This document shows positions 1,778-54,178 of a DNA stretch of 64,000 nt, piece after piece. Under the pieces are notes generated by a model. The model worked only from the letters and a program-made list of their open reading frames with translations, ran no database searches and was not told where the DNA came from. This stretch comes from Thuidium tamariscinum. Lineage: Eukaryota > Streptophyta > Bryopsida > Hypnales > Thuidiaceae. The translations under genes were made by a program, and so were the position numbers. Each line of letters opens with the position of its first letter. The stretch's first letter is position 1. Location of the stretch: contig OX344750.2 of the NCBI GenBank assembly GCA_947034885.2, positions 2,232,001-2,296,000 on the forward strand, given 5' to 3'.

Positions 1778-2416
1778 TTAACCCCTAAATGCCTGAGGAC
1801 ATTTTTAAGAGTCTAGAAATTTGCTCTTAAATTCATCAAAAAGACAACATTTTAATAAGATTTATCAATTTAAAAAAAATGTAACCATATTAATTTGAAC
1901 TAGACATGTTAGAGATTACTTAGGAAAAGAAAACATAATAATATCAATTATGGATAAAAGATTATAATATTTGATCATGAAAGTGTAAAAATTGAAAAAA
2001 AGTAACTTGAAGTCTTCTAATCTTCTTTTCACATGTCAAATCTAAAAATTTGGTCACCAAAAAAATATGAGGTTGAAGGACCTAACACTCATAACCTTAA
2101 TCAGTTTATGGCTTTCAAAATCTATTCTAAAATTCTTTTAAATGAATTTCTAATGTATTTTTTCCTCCAAGATCTAGTGTATTTGAGGATAATTTCCAAG
2201 AGTCCTAAAATACTATGGAAAGTTGAGATTGCAATGTACACCCTTGCATAAAATCTTGAATAGAAAAATCATAACCAATCATTTTCAAGATTGGTTTTTG
2301 GCTACTTAAACTAGACTTCAAAAAGAAGTATTAAAAATAATATCTTGATGAGATTTTATGTAATTTCAAAGTTTTGAAAATACCAAATTTTAGTGCGATA
2401 GGCATTTAGGGATTAA
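1778..2416 (-). mobile_element. TTAA-bounded element, subfamily B, copy 1
   Basis: A 639-bp element. The left end reads TTAACCCCTAAATGCC and the right end is its near-complement, GGCATTTAGGGATTAA, so TTAA lies at both borders followed by CCC/GGG. The interior matches 40025-40579 in the same orientation and 20055-20708 in reverse; shared text includes 'acatgtcaaatctaaaaatt'. The small ORFs inside are not conserved as protein. This is a non-autonomous DNA transposon relic. Confidence 0.8.
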
Positions 2417-2884
2417 ATTGGCAATTTCCTAGTTGTCAAATCAATCACATAAATAAGTAGTTTGTCCCTTGAAAATAAGAACTTGTGTAGATTTTTAATT
2501 GTACACTTGCACTAAAATTCATAGCCCAAAGTAATATAGATATTCCTATACTATATATGTGAGGAAAGGTACATGATAATGCAATTCATCTAAACAAATG
2601 GATTCCGTTGTTGAATATTCTACAATTGTCAACAATTGAAATGTCAAAAGAAATTATTTTCAAGTGACTCTAAAAAATTGTTGAATGAGGGAGAATATTT
2701 CAATCTATATGTATTGTTAAAGGCACAAAGACATTATCTAGTAAAAATATACAAGAACTAATAAAGACCTTACTCTAGTTTGAAACAATCATCATTCTTT
2801 GGAAGAATTCATTCATTTATGTGGTTAGAATTATTAGGAAGTTGGATGCAAGCATGACTTGGCTAAATGCTTGTGGACTAAGTA
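2417..2884. other. Spacer without recognised feature
   Basis: AT-rich with no supported gene or repeat. Confidence 0.5.
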
Positions 2885-3244
2885 ACCTTTGAGCCACCAA
2901 GAAAGAGCAAATGGGTTTCAAGATGTAACCAACTCTGTCTTTAGATGGAAATTCACATAGTTGTTGCTTTTGTGGATGAATCCTCTCTAGTTATGAACAA
3001 ATTATCCTACTGATGGATGAAACATGTTCAAGTAGACAGACACATACAATTAGAGCTCATTATGTACCTTTGAGCCACTAGGAGGCAACATGTGGGTTAC
3101 AAGACATAAAAAGTTCTATCTATGGATAAAAATTCACGTAATTGTTGCCTTCATGGATGAATACTGTGTGGTTATGAACAAATTATCTTTGCCAATCGAT
3201 GAAACACATTCAAACAAATTGACTCATACAATTAGAGTTGATTA
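2885..3244. repeat. Two-copy tandem duplication, 181-bp unit
   Basis: The phrase ACCTTTGAGCCAC starts at 2885 and again at 3066. The following text stays parallel through 'gttatgaacaaattatc' and 'acaattagag'. The two copies have diverged by point changes and small indels, so the duplication is old. There is no coding potential. Confidence 0.75.
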
Positions 3245-3464
3245 TAGCTACAAATCCGTAAATGAATAAAAGATGTACACTCATGTATTGTCTTTGAGAG
3301 GTCTACAACACAACCACACTTTAAAAATTGCATTGGTACTAGTGACAATTCTAAAATTCTTTTTCATTAGAAAAGATTAGGGCTTTCATATACATCAATG
3401 AAATTTGGTAGTAGAAGACAACAATTTTTCATCATTAGAAATGATCATTCAAAGAGAATGAATA

Positions 3465-3773
3465 AGATGGGTACATCCAAAAGCACCACAAATTGGTTTT
3501 GTGCCTAATTACTATTATTAGGTTGTTCAAATTCTCATATAGTCTTGTTGGCAAGTGAAAGTGTGTTCCAATGCACCAAAGAATGCAACACTGGATATAG
3601 TATGCAAAAGTTATTAAGGGTCAAAGTTTGTTTTTGAAAGCACCATGTATAAGTTAATAAGTGTGCATATGACTTTCAGAGCAGCATAGTAAGTGTGCAT
3701 AACTGATTTTGGAAATGTACACATACTGTAGATAGGGCTTTAAGGTCAGTTGCGCTTTTGGACGTGCCTGCCT
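3465..3773 (+). mobile_element. TA-flanked MITE, subfamily S1, copy 1
   Basis: Inverted ends AGATGGGTACATCC and GGACGTGCCTGCCT, preceded by TA and followed by TG (probably a decayed TA). The interior matches the S1 copies at 36876-37148 and 37781-38053, including 'gtcttgttgg.aagtgaaag' and 'atgcaaaagttatta'. It is about 36 bp longer than those copies, through an internal insertion around 3650-3700. The TA target site fits a Stowaway (Tc1/mariner-like) MITE. Confidence 0.75.
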
Positions 3774-4439
3774 TGAACGGGCTTGAAGCATAGCAGCTGA
3801 AGGAAGGAGGGAAGAAAAACGTAGACTAAGTTACTACTGAAAGCACCAAATGCGGCGGTTCCTTGCTCAATTTGCTGACAATTTGCAGACAATGCCGAAA
3901 GCAAAGAAATCACCTCAGTTCTCCTCCGAAAACCAATCCTGAATGGTTGCGAAACTCAAATTCTCCAACCTGAATGGTTGCGCAAATGGAGTTCACAGAA
4001 GACTGAGCATAGAAATGGCACCTGGCCGGAATGAGCAAGCCAAGAGAAAGCGAGACCACAATGTTGTTAGTGAAATGGTGGTTAAGGTAGCGCACCCTAC
4101 AAGATATCGTCCTCACGAAATGGCGCACCACAGGTAATCGTCCATTTGTTTCGTAGAAAGCTCTTGCCCTTGTTTTCCCATCACAGCTGCCACACAACTA
4201 AACCTCGAAATGGAGCTCCTTCATTGCTTAGGTACATCCGCTGGGCTCGCAATTCGACGTAACTTTAGGGTTAGGGCAAAATAGGAGCGTGCATGACCAT
4301 GTCCAGCAGCTTGAGAAATTCGTGGACGTCGATCACAGCGATGGTGTCTAAGTTATGTCACGGCGTAGGAAGACTGGGCTCACTCAGGAAAGGCTCTTCA
4401 TTGCGTAGTACCCTCTGCTTATCTTTTCCTCAATTTTCA
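3774..4439. other. Spacer with mixed base composition
   Basis: Less AT-rich than its surroundings. Short ORFs occur on both strands, but none resembles a known protein or shows splice structure. No gene is called. Confidence 0.4.
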
Positions 4440-4850
4440 CAGCAGAGAAATCGAAGAAGTCCATACACCCAATTCCATAGCGCGATGTCTCTGCAGTTTC
4501 ACGAAAATCCACCCGAAACAGCGCACTCTAGATATGAAATTTCATTACTTTTCGCTAATCTCACACCAATCTTCACACCAGAGACATCCAAAACTAAGTC
4601 CATAGACCCAATTCCACAGTGCACAGTCTCTGCAATCTCACTGAACCTGAAATTCCGCACTCAAGCTGTGAAATTTCATTACTTTTCGCCTTACATTCCA
4701 ACCAATCTGCACACCAATTGATCTGCTCAATCAGAGACATCCGTTGACCCAATTCCTTAGTGCAACGTCTGAGCGATTTCACAAGTTGAGTGAGGCCCGC
4801 AATTTCACGCACCCTCAAGCTGAGAAATGGCACTGTGGAATTGGATCTGC
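4440..4850. repeat. Degenerate tandem repeat, about 140-bp period, three copies
   Basis: The phrase ACCCAATTCC recurs at 4467, 4606 and 4747. Between these points runs a common pattern: a 'gtctctgca' segment, a 'gaaatttcattacttttcgc' segment and 'cagagacatcc'. A 142-codon open frame (4293-4721) crosses the array. Its protein is low-complexity and reflects the repeat, so I do not call it a gene. Confidence 0.65.
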
Positions 4851-4857
4851 GGATTTT

Positions 4858-7474: not shown

Positions 7475-7783
7475 CACTAGAAGAAAAGCGCGTTGGACTG
7501 CCCAAAATTTATGTTGGATTCCCCCAAAACTGCGTTCGATTAAATAAAAAACATCATATGGTTTATGTTGAAAACCATGTTGAAAACGCAGTGAAAACCA
7601 AAAGAAACATAGACATCGTAGAATCCAACATAGATTTTGCATTTCCCTACGTCGTAACACAATTCACTATGTTTTCAACATGGTTTTCAACATAAACCAT
7701 ATGATGCTTTTTGTTTAATCTAACACAGTTTTGGGGGAATCTAACGCAGATTTTGGGCAGTCCAACGTGCTTTTCTTCTAGTG
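7475..7783. mobile_element. CACTA-type foldback MITE, copy 1
   Basis: A 309-bp hairpin element. It begins CACTAGAAGAAAAGC and ends GCTTTTCTTCTAGTG, flanked on both sides by TTT as a 3-bp target duplication. The two arms are complementary over roughly 120 bp each, around a loop of about 70 bp. The CACTA..TAGTG termini and 3-bp duplication fit the CACTA (En/Spm) superfamily. A transcript would fold into a long hairpin. Confidence 0.88.
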
Positions 7784-10335: not shown

Positions 10336-10694
10336 CAATAGATGCTTTTTCACAGTTCTAGAAGATTGTTTTGGGGTTGTTCCCCAAAATTGTTCCTAGT
10401 GTAGCAACTAACTATAGTTGGTCTCATTTTTTGAATTTCAAAAAGATTAAAATTAGAATTTTTTCCAAAATTTTCAGAAAGTATAAAAGAACTATGAGTT
10501 GATTAAAAATATTTCATAATTCTTTTTAATAATTTTTAAAAATTAATTTTAAAAATCAATTAATGAATATTATATGACGTAGCAATTTTTTTGGCTACAT
10601 CAAGATCCTTACTTGGTAGAGTTTCCAAAGTTTCTAATGTGTTTATCCAAACCCAGAATGTGTAGTCTTCTAAAAGCCCTAAAAAACATCTATG
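10336..10694 (+). mobile_element. CATAAG-family MITE, diverged copy
   Basis: Matches the 43238-43574 copy along most of its length: the 'ggttgttccccaaaattgttcc' region, the AT core, 'tgacgtagca', and 'gtagtcttctaaa' near the right end. The terminal repeats are decayed (left CAATAGATG, right near CATCTATG). Its right end abuts the next element at 10693 with no spacer. Confidence 0.7.
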
Positions 10695-11317: not shown

Positions 11318-11376
11318 TAATGGAGGCCAAAGTAGGATGATGGCATTAGCAATGAACAAAAATGGGTTAGTTTACC

Positions 11377-12877
11377 TTAACCCCTTAAGTTGTGTTTTTT
11401 GGCAACATAGTGATTTTGGGTAGCGCACTATGAATGAACTTTTCTTTGAAATTTTCACAAAACATGTGTTCAAAGCTGATAGCTTTAAGCCTCCACAAAT
11501 TTTATAACTTTTGACTACATTGTTCAAAAGTTATTACAAGATATACAGTTTTTGTTGCTCTATAGGTAGCATGGGCAACTCAAATTTTTTTTTTACAAAT
11601 CACTTTTTCAAAAATAAAAATTTGAAATTCACTTTCTCTATCTATATGTATAAAGAAAGAAAACTTTGAATGAATTCCATTTTGATAAATGAGCCAAAAG
11701 TTATGAGGAGCTTTTGTTTGTTGGCACTTTTAGATTTTTTATTCTAAAATAAACTTTGAAGTCCTTTATTTTAATCAAAATTCAATATTATTGGAAGAAT
11801 CATAGTATGTAGATTGTTTATTTTGACATTCCAACTATTGGAATTGGCATTTTTCTATTTGATCACCAAATTCTTAACAATTTAGTATTTTGAATCATTC
11901 TCTACTTCTTTCTACTTACTATTCTTCCTATATGTTGTACAATTCCAAATGGTCTAAATTTTCTCAAGCATATAGCCAACTTGCATTGAAAAATGAATCC
12001 AAAGAAGTATCAACAATATAGACATTTTTCATCTACAATGACCTTGTAAAGTGCAATTGTTCGATTTTTTGCAAGGCCAATTTCTTTTTTTACAATTTCT
12101 CTACAATTCTTTGGGAATTCAAAAGCTCACACTCCTTCTATCCACTAAAAACTTTCGCAAACCTTTCCCTTCAAGAATTAATTATAATTTTAGTCATAGT
12201 GCTAGCAATACATGCATTCAAGAATGAATAAACCATCCCGGCTTATATCTTTGCAAAATCTCTAATTTAGGTGCTATTGTTTAGACACCTAAAATCTATG
12301 TGGAAAGTATGATGTTTGAATATAGTTTGCAATGCTACAAGCTCTATCATTTGAGATGATTTAAAGGGTGGTGGCAATACTAGGTTTGTAGAAATATATT
12401 CTCCAATCTCTATAAAAAGGAAATGTGTCCCACTTTATGAAAAAAAATTGTAGCATTAAAGTGGTCACTAAACAAATCATCAACACTATTGTATAAGGAA
12501 TGAATTAGTACAAGGTGCCTTGTATAGGCAAGGTCAAGCTTGCTAGGCTAAAGGAATGTTCCCATATTGTTTCACTTATCCCTACAAGGTCATTTAGCAT
12601 AGAAAACACTTAATCAACAATGAAAACTAAGAAATGGAACTTTTTAGTAGGACAAAAATTCCACTTGATTTAGAGATTTCTAGTGGAATATACGGAGTAC
12701 CTTGGAATTTATGTAGTGAGAATTTTTGAAATTTTTTCCACATGTTTTCAAGTTAGCATACTACAAGATTCCATGATTCCATTTGTTTGAAAATGTTTCT
12801 TTTTTCCAAAATTTGGTACTATGGTTGTTTGAGAGTGTTTTTGGTGAAAACATAGTTATAGAACTTAAAGAATTTAG
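11377..12877 (+). mobile_element. TTAA-bounded element, subfamily A, decayed copy
   Basis: The left end TTAACCCCTTAAGTTG continues into 'ggcaacatagtgattttggg', the same order as the 48054 copy. The interior follows that copy: 'ttttgactacat.gttcaaaag', 'aaactttgaagtcctttatttt', 'tggtgaaaacat'. The right end near 12861-12877 is degenerate. It is about 540 bp longer than other subfamily A copies, apparently because unrelated sequence is inserted at about 12090-12690. Confidence 0.65.
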
Positions 12878-13024: not shown

Positions 13025-13853
13025 TTAACCCCTAACTGCTCGAGCAACCATATATGGTTGCACAAAAAATTTCAGCTCAAATTTGAATGGGCAATTAAAT
13101 TTGTTTAACCATTTCAAAAAATAATTCGAGAAGTTTTTAGGATTAATTATTGAAAACTTTCATTTTTCACAAAAAAGTAAATATTTGATTATTGAAGGGT
13201 CTTCAAAGGCATATATGTAACACTATTGGAGAGTAAAGCTTGTCAATTTTACTTAATTTTCCAGTTTTGTGTAGAACTTGCCAATTTCACTTGGTTTGAG
13301 ATCAAAGAAATTGCACTTATCCAAATGCTTTGAAAATGGTCCCAATAGAAAGAGTAAAGTGTTTTCAAGATTTTCACCATTGAAAATTTAAACATGCAAG
13401 TGTCAATTTGAAGATATTTGTGATTTCTAGTTATAGAATAAATTTGTACTTCAACAATTGCAAGGTGGATTGTGTAATGAATATGATAGCTTTTCATGTG
13501 AAATTTAGTTTTATGAAAGTATATTTTAGTATTCTAATACTATTTGTAGTTGTTTGTGTCACCTCTATTCCCAAAAAACTTTTAGATGCAAATTTATGAA
13601 ACATTGTGGGAAGGGGTAGCAAAGCAATATACTAAAAATAGACAATATACATTTTTCATATTATAATCTCATAACTCCTATGCAATTTTGCACTCAAAAA
13701 ATTGGCATATATACGAATAAGAAATCTCTTAAAACATCTATGCGGTTAGATTTTGAGAAAAAAATAATTTGCTTCATTGGGGATTACTATAAGCCCATAC
13801 TCTTTTTTTATATAAAAAATAGACTTGCTAAGGCTTACTCACTTAAGGGTTAA
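13025..13853. mobile_element. TTAA-bounded element, 829 bp
   Basis: Starts TTAACCCCTAACTGCTCG and ends with CTTAAGGGTTAA, so TTAA is at both borders with CCC/GGG next to it. The first bases resemble subfamily B ends, but the interior is not clearly shared with the other copies. Short ORFs inside (13249-13497 and 13408-13599) are not called. Confidence 0.6.
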
Positions 13854-20054: not shown

Positions 20055-20708
20055 TTAACCCCCAACTGCCCAAGGCACCAGAATTTGGTGTTTGCAAAAC
20101 TTTGAAGTTAAATAAAACCTAACCAAGTTGCTATTGATAGTAGTTTGTATTTTTGGAAAGATATTTTAGAAGTCTAGTTTTAGTGTCAAAAATCTGATTT
20201 GAAAAATGAATGATAATGATTTTTCTATACAAGATTTTGTGCAAGGGTACCCCTTGCAATCTTGACTTTCCATAGTGTTGAGAGTTGTTGCCAAAATGAC
20301 CTTCAAATACACTAGATCTTGGAGAAGAAATCACATTCAAAATTCATTTACAAAAATTGTAGAGTAGATTTTGAGGAGCCATAAATTGATTGGAGTTATG
20401 CATGTTAGGCCCTTCCGCCTCATATTTTTTTGGTCACCAACTTTTTTATTTAATTTGCGAAAAGAGGATAGAAACATATTACATCACTTTTGTAGTTTTA
20501 ACACCTTCATGGGCAAACATTATAATTTTTCACTCCATAAGTGCTATTGTTGTGTTTTCTTTTCCTATGCAATCTCTAACATGTTAGTTTGAATTTGTAC
20601 GGTTACAATGAAAAAAAATTGATACAACTTATCAAAATGTTGGCATTTTGTTCAACTCAAAGCAAATTCCAAGAAGCTCAAAATAGGCCTTGGGCATTTA
20701 GGGGTTAA
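20055..20708 (+). mobile_element. TTAA-bounded element, subfamily B, best-preserved copy
   Basis: A 654-bp element. It starts TTAACCCCCAACTGCCCAAG and ends CTTGGGCATTTAGGGGTTAA: near-perfect inverted ends of about 20 bp, with TTAA as the outermost four bases on each side. Interior landmarks recur at 51850-52003 and 53715-54178: 'tttgcaaaactttgaagtta', 'aaggataccccttgcaa' (here with one change) and 'gtgctattgttgtgttttc'. It has no transposase coding capacity. Confidence 0.88.
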
Positions 20709-26166: not shown

Positions 26167-26396
26167 TTAATCCTTGAACGACGGACTGGTGACCGTGGAA
26201 ATCATGCATTTTGATTCCGTGTGACATCATCTACTTTGGAAAAGCCAAATATATTCATTGGAAGTCAAAGCCCTGTAGAAGATTTCCCCTTTCCACCCCT
26301 AAAACCGAGGACCAATAGTTGCACTTCCATTCTACAAGGGAAGATTCTCTCTCATTCTGCAGACGCAAAACATCCTCTTCGACGTTTAAGGGTTAA
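26167..26396 (+). mobile_element. Short TTAA-bounded element, 230 bp
   Basis: Starts TTAATCCTTGAACGACG and ends CGACGTTTAAGGGTTAA, with TTAA outermost on both sides. The interior matches 39460-39658 ('agaagatttccccttt.ca', 'aatagttgcacttc'). The 130-codon ORF 26221-26613 begins inside it and is not called. Confidence 0.65.
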
Positions 26397-27061: not shown

Positions 27062-27342
27062 AAGGTACCCCCCAAAATGCACTAGTGACTCAAAAAACAC
27101 CATCATCACTCTACCAAAATCAACATATACCTATGTAGAAGATACAATTTAGGAACCTCTACCAAAAAAACTTTGACCCTTCATAACTTTTGCATCCCGT
27201 ATCCAAATGTCAAATTCTTTAGTGCATCGGAACCTCCTCACTTACTAACAAGAAAATATGAGAATTTGACCCATGTAATAATACAAAGTAGTAACTATGC
27301 ACAGCAGTGAGTTGTTGGATGTTACAAGCGCCACTTCTAGAA
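27062..27342. mobile_element. TA-type MITE, subfamily S1, decayed copy
   Basis: The left part AAGGTACCCCCCAAAATGCAC resembles S1 ends. The interior shares 'cataacttttgca...gtatccaaat' and 'gcatcggaac' with 36876-37148. The right end is unclear near 27342, close to the formin stop codon at 27469. The boundaries are uncertain. Confidence 0.5.
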
Positions 27343-31447: not shown

Positions 31448-33290
31448 GGTAGAAACCTTCGGAAAGTATTGAAACCCGTAAAAGTAAAGCTGGAAGCTCC
31501 AGAACGCAAGCTGCTCGCTGCATCGCTACTACAGAGCCCAAAACCGGCTTCTGTGATGTCAATTGGTTCATGGTTTTACTCTGCCTTCCGTTCACATCTT
31601 CCCCACACAACCCTGCCAACGATGCTTCTCTTTCTTTTGTCATAGAAAGCCACCATGCCACCGAAAAACATCAACCTCATAACGAAAAGCCACTTGCAGA
31701 CATAGAGCACCGACAGTGTCCAGATTATTGCACATTGCTATTCATGACATCCAGTACCGTTAAATGGGGTGTTTCCAAGATTGTCATTCCTGCAATCAGC
31801 ACATGCGTTCTTGTCAACACAACGAAAACCGCTCCCAGAGCATTTCACTACAGGATCTCGCGATCTCAGTAAGGATCGACCATACCTGCGCAAATATCTA
31901 AAAAACGATCTCCGCATTATCAAAAGAACCCCATTCCGCAAGCCTCTCTCCTCTGTGCGGGCATTCCGCACAATACAGTACACTTGCGCGCAACTTTTGA
32001 GAGAGAAGGTGGCCCGCCCGGAAAGGTTCACGAATTCAACGTAGAAACGGGAGATTCATTTCAAATTCGCAGGAGCAGAGAGAATCCCACACATACCCTT
32101 TCCAGAAACCGATCATCACAGTTATTTGAGACATCGCCCTCAAACAAGGAGCATCATTCTCGATGACGAAAACGTTACAAAGGCGACTGAGCTTCGATCC
32201 CGGGCGAGAGGATCGCTGCCCATTGCCGAGCTTTGCTAGCATTCTGATGAGATCTGCTTGCCAAACTGGATCTGAGACCACAACAGCCCTCTCAAAACAC
32301 CATCCGCATGAATCTCCACCTCCAAAGCTCAAGCTTGTAGCTCCTGCTTCTTCTACTAGCCACCAATGACGATGAATTTCGCCATCATTCGATCCACATG
32401 GTCTGTCAACGAAAACTCAAATACACACACACATGCACAGCAAAAGCAAACCGCAAGATTTGACGAGGCCGTGAGTTCCACGTACTGGGAAGTTGGGAGT
32501 GGAGTCGTCTCTCTGGTTCGGTTGTGTGTCTCAGGTTCTGTCCCAGCAAAACCAACTCACTGGGCGTTACCGTGTTCTGTTCCCCACGACCGACCTCCAA
32601 TGCAGAAGGTCGTGATTTTTTTTTATGAATCTCTTGCGTAAGTTCTGCGACCCAGGCGGGAAAACGAGTGACGACGGTTCTACCGAGGTCCCGCGATGTG
32701 CATTATGAGTGAGCGGTGCCTTTCGTTATTAGAAAGAGGAGAGTACCGTAGTAATAACAGGGGACTAACTTTAGGACGTGAGCAGTTTCCTTCGGCTCTC
32801 GGCGCATTTCCGGGACACCTGGAGGGGATAGCAACTCTATCAGACCATTGCCCGTCAGTGAGGACGGGCATTCAGTTACAAGAGAGCCGGTCGAAATCTA
32901 GAATTTTCGAATTTGGAAAAAAAAAATTTAATTTAAATATATATATATATATATAATTTTCTTAAGGCCTAAAGGAGAATATACTGGTTGGTCCCAAAAA
33001 ATGTAGGATTTTAGCCGGTTAAGCTAAAATTTCTTCTCAACTCGTGTTGCCCGTCAAAGACATGGAAATGAACATTAGATATGGAAATGAACATCAATCA
33101 TAAAGCGTAAGTAGCCAATTTAATGGCTTACACAAAATCAAATGTTCTAAAGCTCCTAATTAATCCTAAAAGGACCTAAAAGCCCTTTTGTGGTCACATA
33201 GCATGAGGCTAAATATTGGTTGTATAGAGAAACCCTTAGGCCTTTCTAGGACTAATGTAAGGGGAAAGACAAAGGACAAAAACTAATTAA
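31448..33290. promoter_or_regulatory. Formin upstream region
   Basis: Moderately GC-rich to about 32900, then AT-rich. It probably contains the 5' UTR and promoter of the minus-strand formin gene, and perhaps a short N-terminal exon. ORFs here (for example 32036-32332 and 31404-31661, minus) carry no recognisable signal peptide. An (AT) run of about 10 repeats lies at 32936-32955. Confidence 0.4.
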
Positions 33291-33534
33291 TGTTTTGGAA
33301 AGTTAGTTCATTGTTAGCTTGTGAAAACATTGGAAAAAAGGAGTGAAAAAATGTTTTGGAAAGTTAGTTCATTGTTAGCTTGTGAAAACATTGGAAAAAA
33401 GGAGTGAAAAAATGTTTTGGAAAGTTAGTTCATTGTTAGCTTGTGAAAACATTGGAAAAAAGGAGTGAAAAAATGTTTTGGAAAGTTAGTTCATTGTTAG
33501 CTTGTGAAAACATTGGAAAAAAGGAGTGAAAAAA
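33291..33534. repeat. Perfect tandem array, 61 bp x 4
   Basis: Units begin TGTTTTGGAAAG at 33291, 33352, 33413 and 33474. The four copies appear identical over their 61 bp, total 244 bp. Lack of divergence implies a recent expansion, or a repeat that continues to slip. Exactly identical copies are also prone to assembly error in copy number. There is no coding potential. Confidence 0.95.
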
Positions 33535-36500
33535 TCTCTTCTATATTGTTTAGTGGAAAGAAAAAATAGAATAAAAAAGGGACTTGTCATATATGTATAG
33601 CAACCAACAACAACAAACAAACAAACCAGGGCCTATAGCATGTATAGCAACCAACAACAAAACCACCCTAGACCTTTGAACTTGGGTAAAATGTTGAAAT
33701 TTACTATTTAATTTATAACAAATGGAAATTTTTAACTCAATCACTTGAATAAAAGACATTTAATAAACTATATAAAAACTAAAATAAAATCAACAATCTA
33801 TAAATAAGAAGAAAGTTTTTACTTAGAGACTTAAGTAGGTCTCTAAGGTTTGTGTACATAAAGTAGTACAACCAAACTATGTTCTATCTTCTTGTAGTGT
33901 AGATGGGAGAAGTGGATACTTACAAAATTGAATTATTGGGGGTAATCTTTGCTTTTGAAAGATACAACCAATGAAATTCTACTTACAATGTGTAAAATCC
34001 AATTGTAAAAAATTGTTCACTTTTAAACCAATTCAAGAATGCTAAATGAATCTTGAATCTTGTTCTAATTTCCAAATTACAACAACCAAGGATAATGTAG
34101 ACAATTTACTAAAATGAACCACACTCTTTATGTAGTTGTTTGGCCTTTGTCCTTTGATTGTGGTAGTGTTCCGAGGTGGTGTTACTTTACATGAGTTAAG
34201 TATTGGGCTTATTCCTTTTGTTTAAAAGTATAACAAAAACTTGTAAATAGAATAATGGAAGTTAATCTTCAAGACCTCAAATGAACAAGGTGATTTTCAT
34301 ATGCAATGTTCATCCAAATTTAAATTTGGTAAATTATTTCTTTAACTCTTGTAACCTTAGAACGTTGTTGAAGACACAATTGTCCTTTTGATGACTTTAT
34401 CTAAGATTTTAGAATGTTAATAAACATTTTTTCATCAAATTTTATTTTAAAAAACGCTTGGATACATTTTTAGCAAGTTATATTGCAAAATCCCTCATTA
34501 TGATATTGTTGACTTTTCTAAAGAAGAAGATGCTTAATTCTACAAATCACCATTGTATTTTTGTAATTTTTTGCTAATTACTCTGGATGTAAATTTCAAA
34601 CATAAAAATGATATTTTTTGAATTTAAGTCCAATTAGTGGGTTGAAGTTTAACAAGTTCAATTCTATTGCCATTGAAAATTTTGGAAAATTCATACATTT
34701 CAATATTTTAGAGCACAAGCTTGTAAAGATGATTTGTTAATGTTGTTAATTTAGAATGACACAATACCTTTGGTCTATACTATGATGTTATATACTATAA
34801 TGTATATCTATGGTAAAAATTTCAAATAATTTTACTTAATTTTGTATTTGATATAAAATTTCTTCTTTTTTTCAAAAAATTAATTATAACTTCAATTTTT
34901 TTAAATTGGAAATTCTATGACTTGTAGTAGACAAATGACTTCATCCTTAAAAATTAAATATAAAAAATTTCATTCATATCTAATTGTAGCAAACAAAGTG
35001 ACAATTAGTAAGGCTTAGAGTCATTGGTCATGCATAGGTTCATACTTTCATAATTAAAGATCTTGAAATCAGTGCCTTATATTTTGACAATATATTTAAC
35101 TTTGTAGTAGCTCTACAAACACAAAATATGTGATGGATGACAAAAAGAAACTTTAAATATTTGATAGAAATGTAGATCTTCATCCTTGGAATTTTGTCTA
35201 ATATAGGAAGGTATTGTACAATAGTTTGACCTCCAATGAGTGTTCTTGCATTATTTTATACTTCACACAATATCAAAAATGATGTTTTCCATAGTTACTA
35301 GGCTCCCAATGTTTAAAGGTCAATCCCTTTATGGATAGCCTTGTTATTGACAAAGTAGCTCAAAGAATGTTGCATGAAATTTTAGGATATAAGCTTGACT
35401 ATTTAATTGAGTAGGTCATCAATCAAATAAATGAGAGTGATCATCTTTGTATGATATGAAAACAAGGGGAGTTTTTTGTTCATGTAGTGTTCACTATTAC
35501 CTTTTCTATATGGGTAAAGGCTCTAGGCTTTTCATGATCCAACCTATAGACCAAACAATTTTTCTTTGTGCAAATAAAAAAAAATGAAATGTATTGCACC
35601 TATGCAACAAATATGTGAGACTTACATGTATATGATTACAATAAGCCCATCTAATAAAAGATTCGTTGACTACTATACTGACAATTTTGATTATTCCAAT
35701 GTAAGAACCCTCAATTGTTAGATTATTTTTTATGTAATTGAAATTTTATTTTGATTTGGGAAAAAAATAACTTGGATTGCCACAACTCATAACATTTAGT
35801 AGCCTCCATGCCCATTGCCTTTCCTTCAAACACCTTATTCATTACATTGAATCTCCACCTACCCTCTTGATGAAGTATTGTTGGGTGTGAAATATTCCCC
35901 ACAATTTATTGTAAAAGCTAGTATTTGGAAAGAGTTTGAGCTCAACTAGCTAATACCCCTAATTTTCTATTAGATACAATTTTTTCATTTATAATCTTAG
36001 GTCTATTCTTTGTAGACAATTTTATTTAAAGTAAATTTTTTTTAACTAATGACCAATAATTTGTTTGAAGTTTTGATTTTTTGTCGATTATTTTTGAAAA
36101 ATGAACCGACTTTTTTGCAAGTTTTTTTCCCCTAACAATTTATCATCAATTGGCACCAAACCAATGGGCCCACCACCAAGCCTTTAGAACATGAACAATA
36201 AAATTTTGGATGAGATTGCCAAAAAAACTTCAAATTAAAGAGTTTTTTTTGATGAAATTGCAAGATTGCAAATGAAAATATAATTATGGATATGAGTGAT
36301 ATGTACTTTTGTGATATTTTCTATCCAATATATAGATGAATGTTGAAATTTGAAGCACTACTCTAAAATTTAATATCACCACTTTGACACCTCGTAAAAA
36401 ATGAAAAAATAAAACCATGTTTTTTGTTGGCTCTCTCCATGTTCATTGTGTACAACCAAGGCAGTGACAATGTGTTCTATTAAGGTATTGAATATTACAC

Positions 36501-36869: not shown

Positions 36870-36875
36870 CTAATA

Positions 36876-37148
36876 AGGTAGGTACACCCAAAATGGCACC
36901 TAACCTTAAAGTGCCCTGTACAACATGCATACATTTTCAAAATCAGTCATGTACCCAGACTGTAGATGATGCTTTCAGAAACACACTTTGACTGTTAATA
37001 ACTTTTGCATACGGTATCCAAATCCACTATTATTTGGTGCGTTGGAACATGCTTTCACTCACCAACAAGACTGTAAAAAAGTCTGAACAACGTAATAACA
37101 GGAACTAGGCACAGTATGAAAAACTGGCGCTTTTGGGTGTACCTACCT
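36876..37148 (-). mobile_element. TA-flanked MITE, subfamily S1, copy 2
   Basis: A 273-bp element with ends AGGTAGGTACACCCAAAA and TTTTGGGTGTACCTACCT, flanked by TA on both sides. It has the same length as the copy at 37781-38053, in reverse orientation. This fits a Stowaway-like MITE. Confidence 0.9.
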
Positions 37149-37780
37149 TATTACCAATAATTCTACATGCAAGGGCACTAAGCTTACTCCACAATACAGA
37201 TGAATTGCAAGACTCAGTCCAACTGCTTTCCCTTAATTGGTACTGGAGCTGCTCAACTCAATTGACGTAGCTGACACTGCAGAATCCGTTTGCAAGGGAC
37301 GAGGGATTCAATTGATAATCCAACTATAAGTCATTGAATTGCATCTGGTTCTCCTCCTTCAACATCATGCACTGGCTAGAGACATGCTTCATCGGCAATA
37401 ATGCGTGCCCCATTATTGAAAACCTCCAGATGGGTACGTATTGGTAGAAGCAAAAGGCTTAGAATAAGAAGAGGAAGAAAGAATTATGGGCTTCTTTGGA
37501 CAATGGACGTGATGAATTATGAGGTATCTTAGTACCATGAAAGGAGAGCCTTTGCGGCGGTTTATTCGCAAGCCCTTGTTGGGGACTGCAGCAGATGCTG
37601 GGATGGATTGTTGGGAATTGCAGTTGCATAGGCTCATGGAGTCAGTAACTTAACTTAGACTAGCGTGTGCCCTGTGCCATTGTCACAGCCAAAATCAAAG
37701 CAAAAAAAAATTTCTAATTTTTTAGAACCAAAAATAATTAAAAATCCATAACTTTCTCGCTTTAGGTCAGAATGCCACTA
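37149..37780. other. Spacer between two S1 copies
   Basis: Somewhat GC-richer than its surroundings. A 74-codon minus-strand ORF (37413-37637) is unrecognised and not called. Confidence 0.45.
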
Positions 37781-38053
37781 AGGTGGATACACCTAAAAGT
37801 GCCACTTATTCTTATTGTGCCTAGGTGCTGATATCATGTTGTTCAGATTTTTGTACAGTCTTGTTGGCGAGTGAAAGCATGTTCCAACCCACCAAAGAAC
37901 AAAGGATTTGGATACCGTATGCAAAAGTTATTAGCGGTCAAAGTATGTTTCTGAAAGCGCCATCTACAGTCTGGGTACATGACTGATTTTGGAAATGTAT
38001 GCACATTGTAGATGGTGCTTTAAGGTCAAGTGTCATTTTGGGAGTATCTACCT
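37781..38053 (+). mobile_element. TA-flanked MITE, subfamily S1, copy 3
   Basis: A 273-bp element with ends AGGTGGATACACCTAAAAG and GGGAGTATCTACCT and TA on both flanks. The interior includes 'gtcttgttggcgagtgaaag' and 'ggataccgtatgcaaaag', shared with the other S1 copies. Confidence 0.9.
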
Positions 38054-38360
38054 TAAATAAAGCCCATGCACCCCTCCTTGCCAAGAGCTTTTCAATGGTG
38101 CCAAGCACACAACCAAATAATGCACAGTCTGGGAGATCTCAATGTGACAAACAAAACAAAACAAATAAATTGCTTCCTTAAGGTAAAGATGTTGCTCCTT
38201 GATGGCACCTCACTCTCATCAGTGTGCCACTTGGATTGATTCATTCATGTGAACCTGACTAACTTAGTTGTGTTTTCTTCTTTATGCTTTTTATTCACAC
38301 CATTCCTTAAAAAAAACAAAAAAACTTAAGGTAGAAATACCTATTTTGGACAACCCCCCT
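38054..38360. other. Spacer without recognised feature
   Basis: About 300 bp between MITEs. Nothing is supported. Confidence 0.4.
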
Positions 38361-39150
38361 TTAACCCTTAAAGAACAAAGGCCTTTTTCCAACAAAAAAA
38401 GCACTTAAAATTGTCATTTCTATAGCAAAGAGTAAAGAAATCTAAAAACTATTTTTATTTTTGTACATCTAAGTGTAGGATCTTATACCTAACTAGTATG
38501 AGAGGTTGTGAAAAAATTTCAAAAATTTAGACTACACAAATTCAGTGCAGGATTTTTACATTTAAAGTGAAAAAAAAACAAGTTTTTAGTACATTGTGGG
38601 ACTAGATTATTTGACTTTGAACCTTCTTCACTTTATTTTTTTGCACCACAGAGTTTTGACCTTTAAATCTTTATGGTGCATAATTAAGTTGAGAATCTAG
38701 GAAAATAAATAATTGTACAAAAAAACTTAATTTTTATTCTTAAAAAATCTATTATATAGAAGTAGGTACAAGATGGAAGGAAAATTTTAATTATTAATAT
38801 CTCTGAGATGGAATAGAAACACATTGATTTCAATAGTGAGATTGTTCTAGCAAGCAAAATAAACCTTGTGAATTTGTTTTTTTTGAAAGATTATATTAAT
38901 TGCATTTAGAATTGAATCCTACAAGTTATTTTTTGATGAAGATGATCAAATTGTTCGATAAACAAGATTGTCTATAACTTTCTCATACCAAATCTAAATG
39001 GATTGAATAAAAAGCTTTTCATGTAGATAAAAATACAATCTATGAGAAAAAAAATTATTTTTCTTAAAACCCAAATTTTGAAAAGAAAATTGATGCCCAG
39101 TCTCCCTTGTCTTGAGCTTATTTGGGCATAATTTTTGATCCTAAGCACCG
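38361..39150 (-). mobile_element. TTAA-bounded element, subfamily A relic, right end unclear
   Basis: Starts TTAACCCTTAAAGAACAAAG. The interior follows subfamily A in the order of 52439-53394: 'attgtcatttc', 'gtaggatctta', 'gtgaaaaaatttcaaaaattt', then 'gatgcccagtctccc' near 39095. A block at 38810-38880 is the complement of 42165-42240 and 44640-44700. The right border was not found. Confidence 0.5.
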
Positions 39151-39359
39151 ATTAAAATTTTGTGTTTATTCTTTGTGCTTTTAATTCACACTCTTCCTTT
39201 GAAAAAATGATAAATAAAAAATAACTAACTCAAATGATGGTGTTCATGCATTGGAGTTGTGTAGACTTCCCAATTTCCAACTTCATCCCAAAACTACATT
39301 GTAGACACAAAGTTGAACTTAGATGATTTTCTTTGCTACAATAGAACTTGTCATAACCC

Positions 39360-39439
39360 TTAATCCCTCACTACTTAAGGGGACGAATTTTGTCCCTTTT
39401 TCAATGTATTTTGAGAAACTTCAGGTGGTGAGGGGTTAA
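39360..39439. mobile_element. 80-bp TTAA-bounded mini-element
   Basis: TTAA at 39360 is followed by TCCCTCACTAC, and the complement GTGGTGAGGGG precedes TTAA at 39436. This is a compact inverted repeat with TTAA outermost on both sides. It directly adjoins the next element and shares its TTAA. Confidence 0.6.
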
Positions 39440-40024: not shown

Positions 40025-40579
40025 GAACCTTTGAACATAAATTCAAATTAGACATGTTAGAGGTCATTTAAAAAAAGAAAACACAACAACATCACTTATG
40101 GATTGAAAGATCATAATGATTGATCATGAGGGTGGTAACACTACATAAATGACTTGAAGTCTTTTGATCCTCTTTTCACATGTCAAATCTAAAAATTTGG
40201 CCACCAAAAAAAACGAGGTTAAAGGGCCTCACATGCATAACTCCAATCAATGTATGGCTTCTCAAAATCTATTCTACAATTTTTTTAAATGAAATTCTAA
40301 TGTGTTTTTTCCTCCAAGATCTAGTGTGTTTGAGGCTCATTTCCAAGAGCACTCAACACTACAAAAAGTCAAGATTGCAGTTGACACCCTTGTACAAAAT
40401 CTTGAATAGAAATCCATAATCAATCATTTTCAAGATTGGCTTATTGATGCTTAAACCAAACTTGACAAAAAAGTTTTCAAAAATTTAAACTACTAGAAAT
40501 AGCAACTTGGTTAGGTTTTATTTAACTTTCAAAGTTTTGCAAACACCATATTTTGTTGCCTTGAACATTTAGGAGTTAA
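40025..40579 (-). mobile_element. TTAA-bounded element, subfamily B, left end missing
   Basis: Closely follows 1778-2416: 'gacatgttagag', 'acatgtcaaatctaaaaatt', 'cctccaagatctagtgt', 'caatcattttcaagattgg'. The right end is intact (CATTTAGGAGTTAA at 40566-40579). The outer roughly 110 bp of the left end are absent. Confidence 0.75.
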
Positions 40580-40651
40580 ATGGCTACATGATGGATTTTG
40601 TTGTTGCCTGTAAGAATTTTTCAAGAGAACATTGTTTCCAAACAGTCATTA

Positions 40652-41686: not shown

Positions 41687-41744
41687 TATCAAAAAATGCT
41701 TTCAGAAGGCTAACCTTTTTTAATTTATTTTTATTTTTTAAATA

Positions 41745-42642
41745 CTCAACGTCCTATTGTATTGTAGGGAGACGGAATGGGTTAGTTTGCATTGGATCCT
41801 ATGGTCTCAATTTTTGTTGTGATTTTTAGAATTTTTTTTAAAATAGAAAAATATATTAGATTTTTGAGAATACAATCTATACTTCAATTGGTGCCTAGGA
41901 GCAAAAGCTGTGCTATCCTTATTCCAAAATGGGGTTAGGTGTTCAATACAAAAAAGTCACCAAAAATCAAAATAAAATCCTTAAAATTTTGGTTTTCATG
42001 AAAAGAATTAAAATTTTCCATGTAAGAAGATTTGGTTCATTTTTATTTGGACTAGTGATGAGAACATTTTGGAGAGTTTTGTTTTGGGGGCAATTGAAGT
42101 ATCCTTTCAAAAACATAAATTGTAGGATTCATTTTTAAAATCATTTTTCACTTATTAAAAAGGTTGATGTGGTTTAATTTGCTTGCTAGAACAATCTCAC
42201 CATTGGAACTATTAGTAGTGGTGTTTCAATTCCATCTTAGACCTATTAATGATTTAGTTTTTCCTTTAATTTCCTACTTACTTTTACTTAACAATTTTGT
42301 AAAGAACAAAAATCAACTATTTGTTTTTTGAAAAAATTCTTAGACTTTCACTTCATTTCTTCAAGATAAATTTTTTAGTTCAATATTGGTAGTGCAAAAA
42401 TTTTATGCTAAGAAGATTGAAAGCCATAAAATCTAGTCAAGAAAATTATTTCTTTTCAAATACAAATATCTTATAATCCATGCAAAAAAGAAATCTAAAA
42501 TTTCTTCTATACATTCTTATATTGGTCCACTACAAAATATTATGGTTAGATATGAAAAAATAACAATTTCTAAGTTTTTTGCACTTTGCAATTTTTAAGT
42601 AGAGTTTGATGAAAGAAATACCTTTAGACTTTAGGAATTAAG
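41745..42642 (+). mobile_element. Subfamily A-like relic
   Basis: Shares long interior blocks with 44224-45130 and, reversed, with 38361-39150, such as 'aatttgcttgctagaacaat' and 'caattccatcttaga'. The right end reads CTTTAGGAATTAA. The left end is uncertain. Confidence 0.5.
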
Positions 42643-43237: not shown

Positions 43238-43574
43238 CATAAGAGGATTTATGGGCCCCTAGAAGACTATTTCAAGGGTATTCCCTAAAACTGTTCCCGC
43301 TGCTGCAAACCAGTCCCCTACTGGTCTGAATTTTTGAATTTTGAAAAAAAAAATTAAATTTTTTTTTCCAAAAAACTTCAGAATGTATTAAAAAGCAAAA
43401 AGATGATCTAAAAAATATTTTTTTTTAAAAAATATTTAATAATTAATTAAAATTAATAAACAATTATTATTTTCTGACATGGCAGTTGCTCGACCACATC
43501 AGCATAGCGTTCCCAATGTGTTCCTAGTGTTTGGAAACTCGCAGTCTTCTAAACCAGCTAGAAATCCTCTTATG
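43238..43574 (+). mobile_element. CATAAG-family MITE, copy 2
   Basis: A 337-bp element with perfect 13-bp CATAAGAGGATTT inverted ends. The interior matches 48844-49184 in the same orientation. The flanks cccttgtc and gctttgtc look like an imperfect duplication if the terminal C is counted as flank. This is not seen at other copies, so I do not rely on it. Confidence 0.88.
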
Positions 43575-44223: not shown

Positions 44224-45130
44224 TTTAACCTCTAAAAGTTCCATGTCCCTTTGATGGACAAAGGTATTTTGGATAGGCTCCTATGGTTTCTATTTTCATC
44301 TTGGTTTTTCAAAACTTTATTTAAAGATAGGAAAATTCATCAACTTTCTAGATGTATAATAATTTTATACTTCAATTGATGCTTGAGAGCAGAAATTGTG
44401 CTCCTCTAAGCCCTAATTGATGAAAAAAGATTATTGAAAAAGATTTCAATTTTTTTTCTCATTCCCAATATTTTTTGTCTATATAGAAAGATTTAATTTG
44501 TTTTATTTAGACTATTGGTAGTGATGAAGTTGTGGCAAGTCTTCTTCTGGATAATCTAAGTATTTCTTGGAAAAGTAACTTTTCATATTCATTTTTAAAT
44601 GCGTTCTTTATAAATTTTCAAAAAAATCATTTGAGAAGGTTAATTTGCTTGCTAAAACAATCTCATATTTGGAATTATTGTATTTTAATTCCATCTTAGA
44701 GTTATTAACAATTTAGTTTTTTCTTCAATTTAAAACTAACTTTTATTTTATATGTTCATAAAGAAAGAAAATCAAATATGCATTTTTTGAAATTTTTCTT
44801 GGACTTTCAATTCTTCAATATAAAAACTTAAAATTCAAAATTAGTAGTGTAAAAATTTTAAGTTGAAAAGATTCAAAGGCTTGAAAACTAAGCAAATAAG
44901 GTGCAAACAATCAATTTTCTCCACTTCAAATGCAAATATTTTGTAATCTTTACAGTCAAGATTTCCTTAAAAAATTCTACACATTATCATACTAGTCAAG
45001 TGTAAGATCTTATAGTTAGATATGAAAAAAACAAGTATCCAAATTTAAATTTTTGCACTTTACAATAGAAATTGCAATTTTGAGTAGAATTTGATGAAAC
45101 AAAACAAAACATCAATTGTTACTTTAGGGC
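44224..45130 (+). mobile_element. Subfamily A-like relic
   Basis: Begins near TTTTAACCTCTAAAAG and ends near TACTTTAGGGCTC. The interior parallels 41745-42642 block by block ('gcttgctaaaacaatctca', 'aattccatcttaga.ttattaa', 'ggactttcaattcttcaa'). Both termini are decayed. Confidence 0.5.
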
Positions 45131-48053: not shown

Positions 48054-49328
48054 TTAACCCCTAAAGGACCAACATGCCTTTTTTGGCAACATAGCGATTT
48101 TGGGCAGGTACGTGTGGCTAGAGATTTCCATATTTTGGAACCAAACTTTAATAGAAGGTGTGGACGAGGAGTATCTTCAAAGCTCAACAATTTTCATGAT
48201 TTTTGACTACATGGTTCAAAAGTTATCGCATAAAATGTTGTTTGTTTCTCAACTCGGGCAGTTTGGGCAGATCAGAAAAAATCACTTTTTTTGGAAATAA
48301 AAATTTGAAATTGGTTTTATAGATTTATACATACTCGGGAAGCTTTGAATCATTCTATTTGGATTAATGAGTCAAAAGTTATGAAGAATTTTAGTTTGCG
48401 GGTAGTTATGGATTCTCTTCTCTAAAATAAACTTTGAAGTCCTTTATTTTACTCAATTTTCAATATTTTTGAAAAAAATTAAAAACACTAGGTGTAGGTT
48501 GTTTATTACAACATTTGAACCATTGGGATTGGCATTTTTTAATTCAATAAATAAATTGTTACCATTTTTGTATTTTGAATCATTTGCTACTTCTTTCTAC
48601 CTACTATTTTTTTTGTATATGTTGTACAATTCCAAATGATATGAAAATTTTCAAGCATGTAGCCAACTTGAATTGGAAAATGAATCCAAAGAGTTGCAAT
48701 CATTTTGGACATTTTTTCATATTAATGTGGCCTTCTGAAGTGCAGCTGCCCGGATTTTCGCAGTGGAAAAAAAATGATTTTTGTAACTTCAAACACTAAT
48801 ATCTTGCAATCTACATGGTGGAAATTTCTGAAATTTTTTCTACCATAAGAGGATTTCTGGGCTCCCAAGAGACTGTTTCAGGGGTGTTCCCCGAAATTGT
48901 TCCCACTGCTGCAGACCAGCACCCTGCTGGTCTGAATTTTTGAATTTTGAAAAAAAAAATTAAAATTTTTTTTTCAAAAAACTTCAGAATGTATGAAATA
49001 GAAAAAAAATGATTTAAAAAAATATTTTAAAAATATTTAATATTTAATTAAAATTAATAAAAAAATAATTTTTTTTGACGTGGCAGTCGCTCGACTACAT
49101 CAACATCGCGTTCCTAGCGTTCCCAATGCGTTCCCAGCGTCTGGGAACTCGCAGTCTCTTACAGGAGCTGAAAATCCTCTTATGATCTTCCCAAACTAGT
49201 TCACTAAAAGATCCTACGGTTTTATATGTCAAAAAATGTTTTTTTTTCTGAAATTTGGTAGCCGTCCTAGAAATGACAGTTTTGGAGCAGTTTTGGTGGA
49301 AACATTGTTGTGGTCCTTTAGGGGTTAA
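48054..49328 (+). mobile_element. TTAA-bounded element, subfamily A, best copy, interrupted
   Basis: Starts TTAACCCCTAAAGGACCAAC and ends GTGGTCCTTTAGGGGTTAA: long inverted ends with TTAA outermost. The total is 1275 bp. Removing the 341-bp CATAAG MITE at 48844-49184 leaves 934 bp, close to the 956 bp of the uninterrupted copy at 52439-53394. Apparent ORFs (48000-48206, 48575-48799, 49095-49358) track the repeat and are not called. Confidence 0.88.
48844..49184 (+). mobile_element. CATAAG-family MITE, copy 3, nested
   Basis: A 341-bp element with perfect CATAAGAGGATTT inverted ends, inserted into the TTAA element 48054-49328. The matching uninterrupted host text at 52560-52605 (reverse strand) lets the pre-insertion site be read. 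Little or no target duplication appears, perhaps 0-2 bp. Confidence 0.92.
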
Positions 49329-51849: not shown

Positions 51850-54178
51850 TGAACCCCTAACTGCCCAAGGCACCAAAATCTGGTGTTTGCAAAACTTTGA
51901 AGTTAAAGAAAACCTAACCAAATTGCTTTTATTTCTGTAGTTTTTACTTTTGAAAAATTCTTCTAGAAGACTAGTTTTAGTGTCAAAAATCCGATCTGGA
52001 AAAGAAATGTGTTGAATAGGTTTTTATCAAGATTAAGAAAAAACTGTAGTAATTTAAGGTTCGAACATAGGGGAGACTTGTTAATGGGTATTATATTAAT
52101 CGTTGAGTTGTCACAATTTATACCAAGTAGGATTTTTGATTTACAAATCAATTAATCTTAATTAATTAGCCAATTAATCAATGAAGCCTATGATAATACA
52201 ATCCTCACACTTTTCCAATTGGACTATAATGATTGTCCTCTCTCTATTTCACATTTGCTCCATAGCCTTAATGTTGGAGGTAAACAATTTAACATGTCTT
52301 CCAATAGAAATCAAATTATAACACACATACATACAACTTTCACAATAATTTTAATAGTAACCAAGAACTAATTGATTGACTCAACCAGTTGCAAAACAAT
52401 TGGGAAACTACACACATTCAAAATAACATCCACTTCAATTAACCCCTAAACCCCTAACCTCTATGTTTTCACCAAAACCGCTTCAAAACTGTCATTTCTT
52501 AGACAATTATAAAATTATCAAACAAAAACATTTTTTGACAAAAGTAACCGTAGGATATTTTAGAGAAAAAGTTTAAGAATATGTGAAAAAAATTTCAGAA
52601 ATTTCCGCCATGTAGATTGCAAGACATTAGTGTTTGAAGTGACAAAAATCATTTTTTTACCACTGCGGAAATCCGGGCAGCTGCACTTCAAAAGACCATA
52701 TTTGTGTGGAAAAATGTTCAAAATGATTGTAACTCCTTGGATTCATTTTGAAAATGAAGTTGGCTACATGCTTGAAAATTTTCAGATCATTTGGAATTGT
52801 GAAACATATAGGAAAAAAATAGTAAGTAGAAAGAAGTAGAAAATGAGCCAAAATACTAAATTATTAACAATTTATTTATAAATTTAAAAGAAGACAATCC
52901 CAATGGTTGTATTGTTGTGTTAAACAATATACACCCAATTTTTTTTTTTTTTTTTCAAAAATATTGAAACTTGAATTAAATAAAAAATTTCAAACTTTTT
53001 TTTGTAGTGTAGAGATTTTATAACTAGCCGAAACTACCTCAAACTTAAAAACCTCATAACTTTTGACTGATTAATCCAAATGGAATGATTCAAAGATTCC
53101 CATGCCTGTATAAACCTAAAGAATAAATTTGAAATTTCACTTTTGAAAAAAAAGTTTTTTTAAAGAAGTTTTTTCTGCTGCCCAGGCTGCCCTCACTTCA
53201 AACAAAACGACATATCATGCCATAACTTTTTAACCGTGTAGTCAAAAGTTACAAAAATTGTTGGGCCTTGAAGCTACTCCTTGGACACATGTTGTATCAA
53301 ATTTTCAAAGAAAAAAAGTATAAACTCTATTCGTAGTGAGCTGCCCAAAATTTCTATGTTGCCAAAAAACGCAGCTCAGGGCTTTAGGGGTTAACACAAC
53401 AAAGAAAACACAAAGGCACAATAAGCCAAAATAGATTGCAGGCAAGAGCTCCCAAAACCTATGGAAAGACTAAATTCCAATTGACACAATTTTTTTACTT
53501 AAAGGAAGAAGAATGGTTTGAATAGTTACCACCTATTGGTTCAAGTCTTTTCATATCTTTGAATTTGTCTATATCTACCAATTTATTAACAATCAATTCC
53601 TACCAATCACTATGGTCTATTTACACTATCCAAAGCCAATTGAATCAAATAAAGCTCAAAGTTAGCTAGAAAGTTATCAATAGGATTTTTGGAAAAATAA
53701 ATATTACTACAAAATGATAGAGATTTTTCTACACAAGATTTTGTGCAAGGATACCCCTTGCAACCTTGACTTTCTATAGTGTTGAGAGCTCTTGAAAATG
53801 AGCCTCAAATACACTAGATCTTGGAGAAAAAATCACATTCAAAATTCATTTACAAAAATTGTAAAGTAGATTTTGAGGCTCAGCCATGACTTGATTGGAA
53901 TTATGCATGTTAGGCCCTTTCACCTCATATTTCTTTGGTCACCAACTTTTTAGATTTAACTTGCCAAAAGAGGATAGAAACACTTTACATCACTTTTGCA
54001 ATTATAACACCCTCATGGTCAAACATTATAATCTTTAGCTTATAAGTGCTATTGTTGTGTTTTCTTTTCCTATGCAATCTCTAACATGTCTAGTTTGAAT
54101 TTGTACAGTTACAATATTAAAAAAATTGATACAACTTATCAAAATGTTGGCATCATTTTGTTTAACTTAGAGCAGATT
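51850..54178 (+). mobile_element. TTAA-bounded element, subfamily B, split by a later insertion
   Basis: The left part 51850-52003 and right part 53715-54178 match the contiguous copy at 20055-20708. The left border reads TGAACCCCTAACTGCCCAAG (TTAA mutated to TGAA). The last roughly 45 bp of the right end are missing. About 1.7 kb is inserted between the parts, and a subfamily A element lies inside that insert. Confidence 0.8.
52439..53394 (-). mobile_element. TTAA-bounded element, subfamily A, nested
   Basis: A 956-bp element from TTAACCCCTAAACCCC to GGCTTTAGGGGTTAA. In reverse orientation the interior matches 48054-49328 almost throughout ('gcccggattt.cgcagtgg', 'gcaatctacatgg.ggaaatt'). 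It is the innermost layer of a three-level nest. The ORFs 52630-52839 and 52657-52851 are repeat-derived. Confidence 0.88.

Follow-up and report, generated by a model that had tools for sequence, protein, structure and literature searches.

piggyBac transposons are best known from moths and from bats, whose element is piggyBat, the land-plant record being thin, and piggyBac, which excises without a scar, is a leading transposon of genome engineering. For the piggyBac of Trichoplusia ni, the available excerpts describe recognition of the tip and of a palindrome, cutting through a TTAA hairpin, seamless excision and insertion at TTAA; a dimer of the cysteine-rich domains binds the palindrome, which falls within bp 17-33 at the left end and has its centre at about bp 25 (PMC7351741), or position 29 when the TTAA is included. 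CCC tips are given as a hallmark of piggyBac (PMC10813416, in excerpt). The superfamily is known and is named in plant annotations: a 2023 review has PiggyBac among angiosperm MITE (miniature inverted-repeat transposable element) superfamilies (PMC10004981), another source tabulates piggyBac for every taxonomic group it covers, among them land plants (PMC4438587), and tables for a fern (columns 1230 and 122417; PMC6890710) and for olive (values 1 and 34; PMC4007544) list it. Here, we describe short TTAA-bounded elements in a stretch of 64000 bases (C2:2232001-2296000; the window) from the 363-Mb, 19-contig genome of the moss Thuidium tamariscinum. They are very probably non-autonomous members of the piggyBac superfamily, because the empty sites of one of them hold a single TTAA, their ends are of the CCC...GGG type and full-length TTAA/CCC elements in the same genome encode a PF13843 transposase with three catalytic aspartates (DDD).

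The sequence-only reading had proposed that six intervals, 1778-2416, 13025-13853, 20055-20708, 26167-26396, 48054-49328 and 52439-53394, are bounded by TTAA and run from CCC to GGG. On inspection of the sequence TTAA stands at both ends of all six, at exactly these coordinates, and the bases next to it are CCC at 10 of the 12 ends; the two exceptions, with TCC (TTAATCC), are 1778-2416 on its right and 26167-26396 on its left, so that the second part of the description needs amending for two ends. In comparison with 100 dinucleotide shuffles, exact TTAACCCCTAA is found seven times in the window (mean expectation 0.06) and TTAAYCCYYRA 15 times (1.22 expected, shuffle maximum 4). Bare TTAACCC is not significantly enriched in the window (16 against 10.6 expected by chance, shuffle maximum 19) and was dropped as a signal by itself.

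Self-comparison of the window defined three families. Family A comprises 20055-20708 (654 bp, plus strand), 1778-2416 (639 bp, minus strand relative to the former), a decayed copy at 40037-40581 (minus strand) with a TTAACTCC end at 40579, and a split copy at 51850-54182 (plus strand). To family B belong 48054-49328 (plus strand), 52439-53394 (956 bp, minus strand, subfamily B2) and 11375-12073 (plus strand), which is truncated on the right and decayed at its left end. Family C is represented by 38361-39056 (plus strand), a left part with a TTAACCCTTAAAG end in which only the left end is delimited, and by its relatives 42045-42618 and 44448-45103. Three singletons complete the set, namely 13025-13853 (E13, 829 bp, plus strand), 26167-26396 (230 bp, plus strand, left end TTAATCC, right end TTAACCC) and an unstranded 80-bp miniature element at 39360-39439, whose ends (TTAAYCCCTCAC...) resemble those of the full-length family PB-2 introduced below; an earlier delimitation of 38361-39439 as one element was dropped, the 80-bp element being separate. 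Together the assigned intervals cover 8118 of the 64000 window bases. The further decayed copies that had been noted are present, as the family A copies 40037-40581 and 51850-54182, the truncated family B copy 11375-12073 and the family C pieces. The interval 48054-49328 is TTAA-bounded as described, but it is an element of about 930 bp enlarged by an unrelated secondary insertion of 345 bp from a different family (48840-49184), which its relative 52439-53394 lacks.

A profile search with PF13843 (DDE_Tnp_1_7) over the whole genome scored 116 of 659 first-look candidates as matches, with a best E-value of 5.7e-80 and many matches in long open frames; 0 of 14 control genomes were positive in this search. 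Three families of full-length elements, PB-1, PB-2 and PB-3, were delimited. PB-1 is 5096 bp long and has 11 copies, at loci of equal score in this search, that are 99.96-100% identical to the reference copy along the whole length, with different flanks at all 11 loci, TTAA on both sides of each, and the ends TTAACCCCTAAACGCCGG and TTAACCCTGAAACGCCGG. Its left 36 bp occur 12 times exactly in the genome and once with two mismatches; the twelfth exact end and the mismatched one come from L003 and L005, where the transposase domains are only 72-73% identical to that of PB-1. PB-2 (5094 bp, three copies, 99.7-99.8% identical) and PB-3 (5615-5616 bp, two copies, 99.6% identical) have CCC ends of their own and are flanked by TTAA in 3/3 and 2/2 copies, respectively; the frame is broken in one of the two PB-2 copies with frames listed. 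TTAA and CCC are thus found at both ends of all 16 full-length copies. Judged by the identity of its copies, PB-1 has presumably been active recently.

The PB-1 frame is stop-free and encodes a predicted protein of 1009 amino acids, P0001, with the catalytic domain from about residue 519 (read as one uninterrupted open frame with a putative start). In Pfam, P0001 matches PF13843 only (E 5.7e-79), and among solved structures, at a threshold of E 0.001, it matches only piggyBat (9c0f, 3.2e-27) and the 6x67/6x68 transposase (1e-22), 6x67 being presumably the moth piggyBac of T. ni. The catalytic aspartates of P0001 align with those of piggyBat, and D662, D767 and D883 together with a tryptophan pair are invariant in 11/11 transposase domains that are 32-100% identical to each other. 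By eye, a C-terminus rich in cysteine and histidine is seen in the PB-1, PB-2 and PB-3 frames. The sequence-only reading had proposed a search for a DDD transposase between termini of the same kind, and full-length elements with such TTAA/CCC ends do encode a piggyBac transposase.

Whether TTAA is a target was examined by joining 18 flank pairs (11 from PB-1 and seven from window intervals, one of the latter being the wrong pair 38361-39439) at one TTAA and searching the same genome for the junctions; for 3 of the 18, other places match well across the junction. The clearest site lies in a nest at 51850-54182. Here, the family B element 52439-53394 is inserted in an LTR (long terminal repeat)-like repeat at 52010-53711 (unstranded, TG...CA, with a 5-bp AAATG duplication), which in turn splits a family A copy that has itself a decayed terminal TTAA. 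Because the LTR-like repeat recurs elsewhere, the empty site of the family B insertion could be tested: 6/6 paralogous empty sites have ACTTYRATTAAYACAA, in which TTAA stands once at the junction, and a length difference lies elsewhere. For PB-2 at L027, an empty paralogue of 94.6% identity has one TTAA, and of two paralogues of the PB-1 site at L017, one reads TTAA and the other TTGA. A B2-type copy at L059 lies inside a family A element through which nine other A copies align straight; at the place of insertion the window copy 40037-40581 has an empty TTAA and other A copies have TTTC or similar. A family C element at L013 has a short paralogue with TTAA and two further paralogues lacking it, and comparison of a family B element at L028 with L018 is weak (74.7% identity, TTTAA, with TTAA shifted by one base). 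Altogether, eight occupied sites are consistent with the gain of an element plus four bases, the comparison being strong for 52439-53394 and for PB-2 at L027 and weak for L028 and L013. Of the six intervals, only 52439-53394 is supported by empty sites of its own; for the other five the support comes from the ends that they share and from related copies.

TTAA is therefore the target: an empty site has one copy of it and a filled site two. If it were instead part of the inverted repeat, the elements having entered without target duplication (for example by blunt insertion, or as fold-back elements), its constancy at the ends would be explained, but the paralogous empty sites, 6/6 for 52439-53394, would not hold one TTAA as they do, and we consider such an origin barely credible. 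Additional duplications outside TTAA were sought at 1-5, 8 and 9 bp on 30 elements, four of which have less sure flank pairs (L019 and L021, delimited by motif only, L011, with PB-1 on one side, and the 80-bp element), and at 2-4, 8 and 9 bp on 24 more. Direct matches of 2 bp were found in 1/30 and 1/24 elements, of 3 bp in 0/30 and 1/24 and of 4 bp in 0/30 and 0/24; at 8 and 9 bp, with one mismatch allowed, there were 0/30 and 0/24. No length examined exceeds chance, the extra 2-, 3- or 8-9-bp duplication that the sequence-only reading had named as contrary evidence included. CACTA, Mutator and hAT elements make duplications of 3, 9 and 8 bp, respectively, outside the inverted repeat, and were dropped on these counts. 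Sola3 elements duplicate TTAA and have 5'-GAG termini; this candidate was dropped on its termini, the window ends being CCC or TCC, and no search was made for Sola3 transposases. Kolobok, another superfamily that duplicates TTAA, is reported in plants including chlorophytes, but its termini are given as 5'-RR...YY-3' (PMC9587614, in excerpt) and the window elements start with CCC or TCC. The linked transposases match PF13843, no search for Kolobok transposases having been made, and a Kolobok origin appears improbable in the extreme.

Genome-wide searches took in family A, 52439-53394 and 13025-13853. First-look candidates, which are unconfirmed copies, numbered 5149 for family A, 10032 for 52439-53394 and 1589 for E13, and 40 were scored for each. 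The boundaries first proposed recur, since 37/40 scored matches span 1-654 of family A, 36/42 match rows span 1-956 of 52439-53394 and 24/44 match rows span 1-829 of E13 (match rows include the self-match). When up to one mismatch is allowed, the family A left end has 465 occurrences in the genome and a reversed control has 0. TTAA is present at both ends of 12/12 fetched family A copies, which represent 10 independent insertions, three copies on C1 with common flanks being counted as one, and on both sides of 24/24 further copies (10 A, eight B2 and six E13), chosen among the best full-length matches, a choice that favours intact ends. By these copy numbers, the families examined would be high-copy non-autonomous elements. 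Mean pairwise identity is 97.9% for eight B2 copies, 92.6% for 12 A copies and 86.2% for six E13 copies; these differences suggest waves of different age, with PB-1 as the youngest.

The ends themselves were compared in two ways. For the palindrome, one representative from each of nine families was scored against 2000 single-base shuffles of bases 17-60, in a test framed after the ends had been inspected. A weak palindrome with a score of at least 4 and a centre 28-29.5 from the start of TTAA is found at the left end in 8/9 families (PB-1, PB-2, PB-3, A, B, C, E13 and the 80-bp element) and at no right end; in E13 its arms are 9 bp long and its centre is at 28.5. The summed best-end score over the nine families, 47, was reached in 0/2000 shuffles, and that of the three autonomous left ends alone, 13, in 2/2000, both for a position chosen after inspection. 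For end similarity, the 36 bases after TTAA were aligned and only bases beyond the tip were shuffled, each link being the best of 12 comparisons. The left end of family A matches that of PB-1 at 22/36 bases (0.001 of shuffles), 39360-39439 matches the left end of PB-2 at 24/36 (0/2000 shuffles), and the left end of 26167-26396 matches the right end of PB-1 at 21/36 (0.0005 of shuffles).

By analogy with the moth system, the resident transposases would bind the short terminal repeat, their cysteine-rich domain would bind the palindrome some 25 bp in from the left tip, and excision would be seamless after cutting through a TTAA hairpin, with insertion again at TTAA. The short elements would be moved in trans by these transposases, and successive waves seem to have carried families B2, A and E13 as passengers.

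A number of observations weigh against this reading. Some paralogues of occupied sites carry variants of one or two bases, so that the expectation of single-TTAA empty sites is borne out by 6/6 sites for 52439-53394 and less cleanly elsewhere: the fetched paralogue of the PB-1 site at L010, although 97% identical, has TTCA, the only paralogue seen for L009 is 80% identical and has CTAA, and others read TTGA, TTTA, TTTC, TTTT or TTCC. The compared sites are paralogues, not alleles, and one-base differences are expected of diverged copies. The palindrome is absent in 26167-26396, and the left ends of PB-2, PB-3 and 48054-49328, taken singly, reach p of about 0.1. Among 14 elements, only eight left ends score at least 4 at centres 28.5-29.5, several other family A and B copies score below 4, and at many ends its score is equalled or exceeded by that of a palindrome at another position. 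Its position was picked after looking at the ends, yet it equals the independently published one. No transposition was observed. In addition, sequence and empty sites alone fit equally well a duplication of just TA or TTA within a required TTAA, since TTAACCC...GGGTTAA with a TTAA empty site can be parsed in either way. Miniature elements of the PIF/Harbinger (3-bp TTA/TAA) or Tc1/mariner (2-bp TA) type with TTAA targets by chance would produce this pattern, but all four bases flank both sides in 16/16 autonomous and 24/24 further copies (the 24 picked as full-length), and the linked transposases are of piggyBac type, no search for Harbinger or mariner transposases having been made; we regard this origin as very improbable. 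The length of the duplication is not separable by sequence; the transposase decides the matter, and the assignment to the piggyBac superfamily relies on the type of transposase and the invariant TTAA.

More weight attaches to the proposal that the short elements are no more than dead relics which the resident transposases do not move, with only PB-1 or no family live. The window holds copies with diverged ends, identity is down to the levels given above for family A and E13, and the ends of families B, C and E13 are without a clear match to PB-1, PB-2 or PB-3 in the 36-base comparison. No autonomous partner of family A or B was found when the first-listed of the 465 family A ends were set by eye against the 116 transposase places. 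The high mean identity of the eight B2-type copies argues the other way. We think that the relic proposal is less probable than not, to be taken seriously all the same; the pairing of transposases with families, as judged from likeness of ends, would favour A, 26167-26396 and 39360-39439, and not B, C and E13. As a whole, the view of the sequence-only reading that these are piggyBac-type non-autonomous elements agrees with the empty sites, the type of end and the PF13843 DDD transposases in the same genome.

Insertions into one another were also seen. At L011, a PB-1 copy occupies precisely the TTAA that ends a family B element (L011:3046-3049, by alignment), and piggyBac-type elements likewise adjoin in the right flank at L062 (by eye); the tips of such elements may serve as ready-made targets. 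At L009:2064-2793, a second element has a PB-1-like left end and a right end without a clean TTAA; its site corresponds to that of the PB-1 copy L009:3039-8134 in the neighbouring repeat unit. The plant telomere repeat is CCCTAAA, and the B2 tip at 52439-52460 reads TTAACCCCTAAACCCCTAACC, which is near to it, probably by coincidence.

The remainder of the window holds genes, including those for a CAF1 nuclease and a formin, and other repeats. The repeat of about 345 bp inserted at 48840-49184 (unstranded) has inverted ends of the form CATAAGAGGATTT...AAATCCTCTTATG, with further copies at 1064-1408 and 43238-43574 and a weaker one at 10358-10607. A tandem repeat with a 61-bp unit, some copies of which are identical, occupies 33228-33593. 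A dispersed repeat forms an inverted pair at 36874-37150 and 37779-38055 (86% identity) and recurs at 3455-3777 and 27164-27291, and related sequence is present in the flanks of several transposase loci. On the minus strand, 60626-62722 is an open frame of 698 amino acids with a charged C-terminus and no Pfam match at E 0.001, which is possibly gag-like. LEAFY exons are found at the fetched loci L029 and L030; the DNA-binding exon at L029:1531-1851 matches 4bhk, a LEAFY homologue that we take to be from the moss Physcomitrella, at 238 bits (next 173), which fits a moss host.

The sequence-only reading had called piggyBac non-standard in plant inventories, which is fair without being absolute: the name does appear in annotation lists and tables, which concern a fern, olive, the MITEs of angiosperms and land plants in general. 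In the open-access literature, represented mostly by titles and the starts of abstracts, no intact or TTAA-verified native piggyBac was found for a moss or other land plant, and the "piggybac" of a Niphotrichum paper is the word "piggybacking". In an excerpt on Ptychostomum, terminal inverted repeat elements make up 29.13%, with CACTA as the largest part (PMC11704416). We are evenly divided on a bolder proposal, in which PB-1 would be a native plant piggyBac mobile today, piggyBac with its thousands of passengers would be a principal group of DNA transposons in this genome, with moth-like ends (a CCC tip and, some 25 bp inward, a palindrome), and other mosses may hide such elements under labels such as CACTA. 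The piggyBac used in plants originates from a moth (PMC10905368); a lineage native to plants, its full-length copies near-identical, could yield a plant-adapted tool and could serve as a natural experiment on how plants silence or tolerate piggyBac. It would also widen the documented range of intact piggyBac, and it suggests that abundant TTAA elements of mosses may go under wrong names where a plant annotation has no piggyBac class.

Compared with known systems, these elements are ordinary in kind, as members of the piggyBac superfamily, and unusual in host, abundance and freshness. The plant annotation entries concern the same superfamily, but in the portions available they are items of lists or tables without an intact transposase, an empty site or an active family. 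P0001 has its best match among solved structures in piggyBat, with the catalytic aspartates aligned, and is distant from it in sequence. With the piggyBac of T. ni, as excerpted, the moss elements share a DDD transposase with a cysteine-rich C-terminus, the TTAA target, CCC ends, asymmetry of the ends and, at many left ends, a weak and putative counterpart of the palindrome in bp 17-33, centred near bp 25 (PMC7351741). They differ from it in their moss host, in a PB-1 open frame of 1009 amino acids, as against 594, with the catalytic domain predicted from about residue 519, and in a length of 5.1-5.6 kb, as against about 2.5 kb (2472 bp; PMC10813416, in excerpt).

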